Assembly (NCBI GenBank): GCA_030248405.1
Contig: JARCMA010000277.1
Coordinates: 1-39,555, forward strand
Reading direction: 5' to 3'
Length of the DNA stretch: 39,555 bases
Origin: Microcoleus sp. MP8IB2.171
GTDB lineage: Bacteria; Cyanobacteriota; Cyanobacteriia; Cyanobacteriales; Microcoleaceae
Below, piece by piece: positions 9,772-11,453 of this stretch; within the stretch, counting starts at the first letter, position 1; the number at the start of each line of letters is the position of its first letter. The position numbers were made by a program, and so were the translations under genes. Under the pieces are notes generated by a model, which worked only from the letters and a program-made list of their open reading frames with translations, did no database searches and was not told the origin of the DNA.

Positions 9772-9827
9772 TTACCAGGCTCGTGCCTGGTAATGCTGTC
9801 TCGTGGCTCCAAATCGGAGGCAGAGCC
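9772..9827. repeat. Two adjacent small palindromes (TTACCAGGC-TCGT-GCCTGGTAA; GGCTC...GAGCC)
   Basis: Read directly: 9772-9793, and 9805-9827 (ggctccaaatcggaggcagagcc). Confidence 0.8.
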
Positions 9828-9831
9828 GACT

Positions 9832-10134
9832 TCTTTTTGCTCTTACTGCATCAACCTGTAAATCTAACTCTTGTTTGAGAACTTCTTTATACAGAAATTA
9901 AATGGCACTTAAAGCCTGATTTTGAGTTGAAGCAGCGACATTTTCTTCAACGGCTAAATGAGTTAAAAATTGTTCAATTTCTTTTCCACCCATTTCTCTA
10001 GGATGTCGTTTATTATGGAATAAAATATAGCGTTTAATCCAATTAATGTAGCTTTTTTCCGTTTTGTAAGAGTAATGCTTCAGACGAATGACATCACTTA
10101 CTTGTTCAAGGAGTTTTTTGGGACGTTGTTCCAT
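9832..10134 (-). pseudogene. Integron-type (phage_int_SAM_4) tyrosine integrase remnant: in-frame stop plus 3' truncation, catalytic domain absent
   Basis: MEQRPKKLLEQVSDVIRLKHYSYKTEKSYINWIKRYILFHNKRHPREMGGKEIEQFLTHLAVEENVAASTQNQALSAI*FLYKEVLKQELDLQVDAVRAKRS; homology-like sequence continues in the same frame past TAA, then breaks at the palindromic repeat. Confidence 0.9.
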
Positions 10135-10145
10135 AAGATGAGATC

Positions 10146-10311
10146 CAGAATGTTTCTTGATAGTATGACTATCTGGTATGTTATCCAGAAAATTTCTGGT
10201 TGTCATCGGAGAATATACAGAATGTTTCTAGCTATCATCCTCCTATGGGGTGATTATCCCGAAAGTTTCGGCTTTTTGTTCCATTGGGGTTGACTATACG
10301 GAAAATGTCGG
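10146..10311. repeat. Array of five degenerate palindromic boxes (consensus about CMGAAAnTTTCkG)
   Basis: CAGAATGTTTCTTG 10146-10159; CCAGAAAATTTCTGG 10185-10199; CAGAATGTTTCTAG 10218-10231; CCGAAAGTTTCGG 10259-10271; CGGAAAATGTCGG 10299-10311. Confidence 0.8.
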
Positions 10312-10317
10312 TATAAT
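10290..10317 (+). promoter_or_regulatory. Near-consensus sigma70-type promoter (TTGACT - 16 nt - TATAAT)
   Basis: TTGACT 10290-10295, spacer atacggaaaatgtcgg, TATAAT 10312-10317; points toward the HNH gene; palindrome box 5 occupies the spacer. Confidence 0.7.
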
Positions 10318-10484
10318 AAATAGTTAGCTGGCTGCGTTTCAGGATAGTTACTTATTTGAATTTGGTAGGCAAAGCTTTCACAGGCGTTAACCTGGATAGT
10401 TCAATTAAACTACTTGTGCTATAACGTAGAAAATTATTGGAAAATAAAACGACAGCTTTTGTAGTGCGAAGAGGTTTTTGGAGC

Positions 10485-11324
10485 ATGCGCTGTATTTTTT
10501 GCAAAAGCGACTCAAGCAAATCCAAGAGTGTCGAGCATATTATTCCTGAATCCCTCGGTAACACCACGAAAGTGCTTCCAAAAGGAATTGTCTGCGATAA
10601 ATGTAACAACTACTTCGCACGTAAAGTGGAGCAACCTTTTCTTGAAGCTCCAGCGTTGAAGTCTCTCCGTTTTCACCAAGCTATTCCTAATAAAAGGCAG
10701 AGAGTACCGCCCTTGACAGGGATCTTTTCATCCGAATTTCCGGTGACTTCATATCGCTATTTAGAAGGGCCGTATGCAGGATTAGTAGATATGCCGCCGG
10801 AAGCTATCAAAGTCCTTTTTGAAAGAAAGGGTGGGGAAATAATCTTTTCGGGGCATGATGAGCCTCCACCAGACAGAATCGTCTCAAGGTTTTTGGCTAA
10901 AGTAGCTCTCGAATTGATGGCTTTACGTATCTTAGAAGCCTGCAAAGAGATTGACGACTTAAATGCTTCTGACGGAATCGACTACTTAGTCAATGAAGCA
11001 CAGCTAGATATTCTTAGGAACCACGCTCGTCGAGGAGATACACCTGATTGGCCATACAATTCACGTCGTATTTATAAGCCTAATGAGAAATGGATCGATG
11101 AATTTGGCTCGGATGTCCAAATCGTTCATGAGTCTGATATTCTTCAGACAAATTGGGGCGAATGGTTTTGCGTTTTGGCTATTTTCGGTTTAGAGCTTGT
11201 AATCAACTGCGGTGGTCCTGAGATAGAGGGCTATCACCGTTGGTTATCAGAAAATAATGGTGATAGCCCTTTATACTCTGGAAAAAATAAGATGTCCTCT
11301 AAGCTGAGACGAATGCCCAGCTAA
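10485..11324 (+). CDS. HNH endonuclease family protein (HNH_5-like N-terminus) with uncharacterised C-terminal region
   Basis: MRCIFCKSDSSKSKSVEHIIPESLGN...GIVCDKCNNYFARKVEQPFL: CxxC...EHIIPxSLGN...CxxCNxxF. The track's upstream TTG start at 10437 is less likely than ATG 10485. Confidence 0.85.
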   Translation: MRCIFCKSDSSKSKSVEHIIPESLGNTTKVLPKGIVCDKCNNYFARKVEQPFLEAPALKSLRFHQAIPNKRQRVPPLTGIFSSEFPVTSYRYLEGPYAGLVDMPPEAIKVLFERKGGEIIFSGHDEPPPDRIVSRFLAKVALELMALRILEACKEIDDLNASDGIDYLVNEAQLDILRNHARRGDTPDWPYNSRRIYKPNEKWIDEFGSDVQIVHESDILQTNWGEWFCVLAIFGLELVINCGGPEIEGYHRWLSENNGDSPLYSGKNKMSSKLRRMPS

Positions 11325-11342
11325 CACTTCACGGCTGATCTT

Positions 11343-11448
11343 GTAGGGTGCGTTAACGGAGTGTAACGCACCATCAAATATACACAAATGTAACGCACCA
11401 TCTTTATGTTAATTTAAGGTGTGTTACGCTGTCGCTAACACACCCTAC
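11343..11448. repeat. 106-bp inverted-repeat element with GTAGGGTGCGTTA/TAACACACCCTAC ends
   Basis: Termini 11343-11355 and 11436-11448; same terminal signature as 5749-5886; internal taacgcacc repeats. Confidence 0.88.
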
Positions 11449-11453
11449 GACTG

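Follow-up and report, generated by a model that had tools for sequence, protein, structure and literature searches.

The attI sites of cyanobacterial integrons appear to carry a putative binding array for the integron integrase IntI, consisting of about 4–9 near-palindromic boxes that lie 40–41 bp apart (sometimes 32–33 bp) between the integrase gene intI and the crossover point. A 39,555-nt stretch of the Microcoleus sp. MP8IB2.171 genome (contig JARCMA010000277.1, positions 1–39,555; this whole stretch is referred to as the window) would then preserve such an attI together with the first cassette of a decayed chromosomal integron. We assign a probability of roughly 0.74 to these two statements jointly, based on comparative sequence analysis. 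The position of the array, its periodicity, the identity of its half-sites, its conservation with IntI and its restriction to cyanobacterial integrons were each directly observed. A first-pass annotation of the window had noted the boxes without recognising the integron, suggested attI-like recombinase sites as one possibility, and knew of no named element matching them. The position does have a name, attI, but the remark very nearly stands: of the array itself we found no published description in the open-licence literature on cyanobacterial or Microcoleus integrons or on tandem or palindromic attI sites, although an earlier account elsewhere is possible.

The 78-amino-acid open reading frame to the left of the boxes codes for an integron-integrase N-terminal domain (PF13495, E = 4e-28; TIGR02249, E = 5e-26), and the boxes therefore fill the attI position. 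The suggestion of attI-like sites was thus right in a more literal sense than proposed, the gene being a relic of intI and the array its attI. Transcription of intI is directed away from the cassettes. The relic matches the intact IntI of genome G053 across 96 codons, after which homology ends; it is interrupted by a single internal TAA (9898–9900) and the remainder of the gene has been lost. An intact IntI nearly identical to the relic in its N-terminal part is encoded at locus L030, whose attI has four boxes. In a genome-wide search for IntI, the relic was the only substantial match, the other (E = 7e-6) covering only the C-terminal part of the profile. Since the integrase is dead in this genome, the array of the window is itself a relic. 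The sister genome G014 has no intI at this locus but retains boxes 3–5, the putative cassette promoter Pc and the crossover.

All five boxes that had been annotated were recovered where they had been placed (10141–10316), as 23-mers with centres at 10152, 10192, 10224, 10265 and 10305 (Table 1), and the measured intervals of 40, 32, 41 and 40 bp agree with the original ones. The accompanying estimate of four helical turns between boxes is approximate, as 40–41 bp corresponds to 3.8–3.9 turns. Box 1 lies directly upstream of the integrase ATG (10134, minus strand). Each box comprises two inverted copies of a half-site, TTATMCmGAAA in the window, and the box consensus TTAGACGGAAAATTTCCGTCTAA is a perfect dyad. 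To score all 39,533 window positions we used a symmetrised matrix derived exclusively from other families' integrons, of which only the last attI box was taken. Boxes 3, 5, 2 and 4 took ranks 1–4 with scores of 10.9–19.7, compared with 9.1 for the best position outside the array, which shows that the array did not arise by chance.

Table 1 Coordinates of the intI relic, the box array and the first cassette in the window.
Feature	Position	Strand	Details
intI relic, N-terminal ~96 codons of an integron integrase	9826–10134	-	TIGR02249 E = 5e-26; 97% identity to G053 IntI
Box 1 (degenerate), AGATCCAGAATGTTTCTTGATAG	10141–10163	.	7/11 dyad pairs; matrix rank 99 of 39,533; conserved in L012 and L030
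Box 2, TTATCCAGAAAATTTCTGGTTGT	10181–10203	.	8/11 dyad pairs; matrix rank 3
Box 3, ATATACAGAATGTTTCTAGCTAT	10213–10235	.	7/11 dyad pairs; matrix rank 1
Box 4, TTATCCCGAAAGTTTCGGCTTTT	10254–10276	.	7/11 dyad pairs; matrix rank 4
Putative cassette promoter Pc, TTGACT-16-TATAAT	10290–10317	+	11/12 match to sigma-70 consensus; overlaps box 5
Box 5 (last box), CTATACGGAAAATGTCGGTATAA	10294–10316	.	8/11 dyad pairs; matrix rank 2
attI x cassette crossover, G^TTAGCT (R box)	10323–10329	+	Homology to related genome stops at the G; complement after HNH gene
First cassette gene, HNH_5-domain protein	10485–11324	+	PF14279 E = 1e-12; ATG at 10485, GGAG upstream
attC R'' of HNH cassette, CCAGCTAAC	11317–11325	+	Exact complement of GTTAGCTGG at 10323–10331; at HNH stop codon

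As had been proposed, box 5 is embedded in a near-consensus promoter sequence, occupying the spacer of the putative Pc. A Pc-like sequence is conserved in most copies of the window's attI family; overlap of Pc with the last box as a general feature was rejected, being confined to this family and not seen in others. Downstream of Pc, GTTAGCT fits the G^TTRRRY crossover motif with one departure from RRRY, and DNA homology to the orthologous locus in G037 ends at its G (10323). Beyond the crossover, relatives carry different, unrelated genes behind the same array. The complementarity between CCAGCTAAC and GTTAGCTGG is what an integrated cassette should show between its first nucleotides and its attC R'' box. 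The remaining parts of this attC (L' and R') were not found after R''; a dispersed GTAGGGTGCGTTA...CACCCTAC repeat, which may have inserted into the attC, starts about 17 nt beyond it. The repeat occurs within ~20–35 nt of attC R'' in two different relic cassettes (window 11342–11449; L015:2230–2344), and further copies (L013, L015) are present in other contexts.

The HNH gene is rare, occurring in 3 of 245 genomes of the order. Of its two homologues, one (L236) is the first cassette behind a boxed attI and the other (L237) abuts a C-terminal fragment of intI, which identifies this gene as a recurrent first cassette. The HNH_5 protein shares 44–46% identity with these two homologues from other cyanobacteria and is weakly similar to the PtuB defence nuclease (E = 0.01); it is possibly a cassette-borne defence gene. 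The first-pass annotation had alternatively read the boxes as an operator array for a regulator of the HNH gene. We rejected this, because the gene is a rare and exchangeable cassette, the boxes accompany intI and attI, and relatives have the array in front of unrelated genes.

Integron integrases scoring above the TIGR02249 cut-off are encoded by 124 of the 390 genomes sampled from the class and by 3 of the 62 from the family. Regions upstream of intI were collected from 120 loci, and the 102 that were non-redundant and sufficiently long were analysed. Their summed autocorrelation peaks at a lag of 41 (z = 19.3), closely followed by 40 (z = 17.5), and shows harmonics at 80 and 82, whereas the same sequences 400 bp further on gave z values of -2.3 (lag 40) and -1.2 (lag 41). 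Considered locus by locus, periodicity was significant in 59.8% of the 102 loci versus 2.1% of control stretches, and in none of 63 non-cyanobacterial integrons from Gamma- and Betaproteobacteria, Desulfobacterota, Chloroflexota and others. Palindromes numbered 2.6 per 350 bp upstream of intI compared with ~1.0 in shuffled sequences and controls, with 40 and 41 bp as the commonest spacings. In a tree of IntI, one branch sets apart a group that contains every cyanobacterial sequence plus 11 non-cyanobacterial ones (Chloroflexota, Desulfobacterota, PVC group and others) whose loci have no arrays. Arrays are found in nearly all members of one large cyanobacterial IntI clade and in several other clades; under the strict periodicity test some 40% of cyanobacterial loci are not significant, among them every member of a clade of eight from family f16, in which no array was found.

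Intact loci have approximately 4–9 boxes each, extending over 150–350 bp. Absence of the boxes from homologous loci, or comparable arrays in shuffled sequence, had been named at the outset as outcomes that would speak against the array; the boxes are conserved in homologous loci, and chains of at least four occur at 41 of 61 loci versus 21 of 1220 shuffles. Free searching returned box spacings of 40 (56 cases), 41 (40), 42 (16) and 39 bp (12), with a minor class of 32–33 bp (14). As the two spacing classes represent 3.8–4.0 (40–42 bp) and 3.0–3.1 (32–33 bp) helical turns, the boxes keep to roughly one helix face, making same-face binding by an oligomeric protein plausible. Crossovers were called automatically and then checked by eye, with 16 dropped and about a dozen set by hand; this curation affects the half-site, box-matrix, chain and divergence analyses, and the palindrome counts and periodicity tests are independent of it.

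Several further configurations were encountered among cyanobacterial genomes. Dispersed attI fragments lacking intI, comprising the last 1–4 boxes and mostly a Pc-like sequence and crossover, occur at L013, L015, L016, L017, L018, L023, L024, L026 and L028, and are possibly relics or deltaattI-type cassettes of the kind described previously (PMC12901181). G053 has one intact integron and partial attI copies without intI at three other places, and G046 has two attI fragments ~1.9 kb apart with a common left flank. Four intI copies, two open and two broken, lie within ~48 kb of the G009 genome (C1:4450106-4498212), which suggests tandem integron platforms. An integron integrase is also present on a 58,514-bp plasmid of Kovacikia minuta (G364:C3, NZ_CP083584.1), and cyanobacterial integrons are thus not solely chromosomal.

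The composition of the boxes links them to the recombination core. When 64 loci were aligned at the crossover, most read TTAGRCRGAAA-n-TTTCMGTCTAA, followed by 5–6 nt and GTTRRRY. The right arm of the last box (box 5 in the window) is the L half-site of the attI core, at a nearly fixed distance of 5–7 nt from the crossover (G^TTRRRY). Copies of this 12-nt half-site in a locus's own upstream array matched at 9.38 of 12 positions, compared with 8.02 in shuffles (p = 3e-10) and 8.48 in the arrays of other loci (p = 2e-7). They are located 58, 99–102, 140–142 and 180 nt from the crossover in the L orientation, and 69–73, 108–111 and 151 nt away in the opposite orientation. This recurrence in both orientations at steps of ~40 bp shows that every box pairs two core-type half-sites in inverted arrangement. 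The half-site itself differs between two lineages, TTAGRC... in one and TTATCCAGC... in the other.

Within arrays, box cores are 0.56–0.61 identical over the first three steps compared with 0.35–0.43 for their flanks. Spacer 4–5 between the boxes is also conserved within the window's family, making an alignment of that family uninformative, and constraint was therefore compared across families, using pairs of loci whose IntI sequences differ by at most 25%. In these pairs the proportion of differing positions was 0.27 in the L half-site, 0.34 in the left arm of the last box, 0.57 in the inter-box spacer and 0.68 in the cassette. Half-site difference correlates with IntI distance (rho = 0.35 and 0.46), whereas cassette difference does not (rho = 0.04). 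From the low divergence of half-sites and cores and their correlation with IntI distance, we conclude that the boxes are held by selection and shift with the integrase.

Likeness to the L half-site may also fit an operator of another protein that overlaps L. A separate dimeric, oligomerising regulator could bind the boxes and control both Pint and Pc, with its last operator overlapping the L side of attI, and such a protein would account for the perfect dyads of the consensus, the near-integral helical phasing and the overlap of box 5 with the promoter. However, a host regulator should retain a single motif throughout the cyanobacteria, whereas the box sequence co-varies with the L half-site and IntI between lineages, and the boxes travel with attI even into dispersed fragments without intI. 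The consensus also fits neither the cyanobacterial LexA (RGTACNNNDGTWCB) nor the NtcA (GTAN8TAC) motif. We consider an operator array of this type unlikely.

LexA and NtcA operators were accordingly rejected as identities for the boxes, and the LexA-like motifs that do occur are separate elements next to intI. The LexA-type sequence AGTACNNNNGTWCT had no match with two or fewer mismatches at 10135–10330 of the window. It is present 20–85 nt upstream of the matched intI start at 15 of 102 cyanobacterial loci (exact in L090, L094, L117, L132 and L042, with one mismatch in ten more), compared with 1.5 expected in shuffles and 0 of 63 non-cyanobacterial loci, which suggests SOS control of intI in some cyanobacteria. 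An earlier survey reported only Escherichia coli-type LexA sites in cyanobacteria (PMC3108266). A genome-wide regulator motif was likewise rejected, as perfect box matches elsewhere are isolated and the two inspected (C267, C634) lie in coding-like sequence without arrays.

It is improbable that the boxes are passive copies of a short attI unit, produced by slippage or unequal recombination, with function confined to the last box. The variable number of boxes (4–9) agrees with such a history, and a fusion of boxes 2 and 3 in G053 is compatible with recombination between repeats, but passive units would decay evenly, whereas the spacers are much less conserved than the boxes they separate and the pitch of 40–41 (or 32–33) bp is kept across distant families. 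It is similarly improbable that the palindromes act at the RNA level, folding into hairpins in transcripts from Pc or Pint that would serve, for instance, as terminators or in translational control: box 4 and the following CTTTTTG score as terminator-like, but most boxes lack a T tract, boxes within an array are alike in sequence and not just in pairing, and half-sites occur in both orientations at a set pitch from a DNA crossover. No Rfam family was detected in the region, the best hits (E = 0.5–0.9) being chance matches to animal miRNAs and lncRNAs.

An integrase-binding array has a precedent in class 1 integrons, where IntI1 binds L, R and the direct repeats DR1 and DR2 in attI1, and efficient attI x attC recombination needs all four (PMC12901181, PMC3518468). 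The attI1 core reads CCCTAAA-ACAAA-G^TTRRRY, and 32 nt separate the crossover from the start of its outer DR1 half-site (sequence verified in 2,961 records at ≥99% identity). In the window the corresponding distance to the left arm of the last box is 29 nt, which puts this arm where DR1 sits in attI1. Both systems have accessory copies resembling the core half-site upstream of L/R, and they share the L-to-crossover geometry (7-bp L, 5 nt, GTTRRRY) and an outer half-site 29–32 nt from the crossover. They differ in that attI1 has two accessory direct repeats, a layout absent from the cyanobacterial sites, where 4–9 inverted pairs at a pitch of 40–41 bp span 150–350 bp. Given the near-DR1 geometry of the left arm, the cyanobacterial attI looks like a DR1-L unit that was made into an inverted pair and then multiplied. 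The attIA site of Vibrio cholerae is reported to be without such repeats (PMC8946536). It is similar in being a chromosomal integron attI that adjoins intI and has a G^TTRRRY crossover. Arm-site arrays of phage lambda-type integrases also place several accessory recombinase-binding sites beside the core; there, however, a separate N-terminal domain recognises the arm sites, which are unlike the core sites, whereas the cyanobacterial boxes resemble the core half-site. IntI has just the usual SAM-like N-domain.

Returning to the integrase-binding array, we propose that it probably represents an L/DR1-type binding unit multiplied on the same face of the DNA, which would organise the insertion complex and control Pc. 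IntI dimers could bind the boxes cooperatively along about one helix face and form an extended complex that aids cassette insertion, as DR1 and DR2 do in attI1, and thereby promote productive attC capture at the terminal R box. In the window's family, this complex could compete with RNA polymerase at the Pc that overlaps box 5, and so couple cassette capture to expression.

Knowledge of attI recognition is said to be lacking (PMC4792948) and the structural elements of attI2 are still undefined (PMC12901181), leaving an acknowledged gap as to which double-stranded attI features beyond L and R matter and how an integrase recognises the attI that belongs to it. Of the cyanobacterial genomes sampled, a third have integron integrases above the cut-off, many with a natural attI of 4–9 repeats of the recognition unit. 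Because the repeat sequence shifts with IntI lineage by lineage, these sites provide a ready-made series for studying the number and phasing of accessory sites and the specificity of IntI, and the array is a signature for locating attI sites in unannotated genomes, including relics without intI. More tentatively, and at slightly less than even odds, most integron-bearing cyanobacterial lineages may possess a distinct class of attI in which IntI polymerises on a phased array of 4–9 paired half-sites, forming a large complex that would set the efficiency and directionality of insertion and switch the cassette promoter, a substitute for the DR1/DR2 or host-factor mechanisms known in Proteobacteria.
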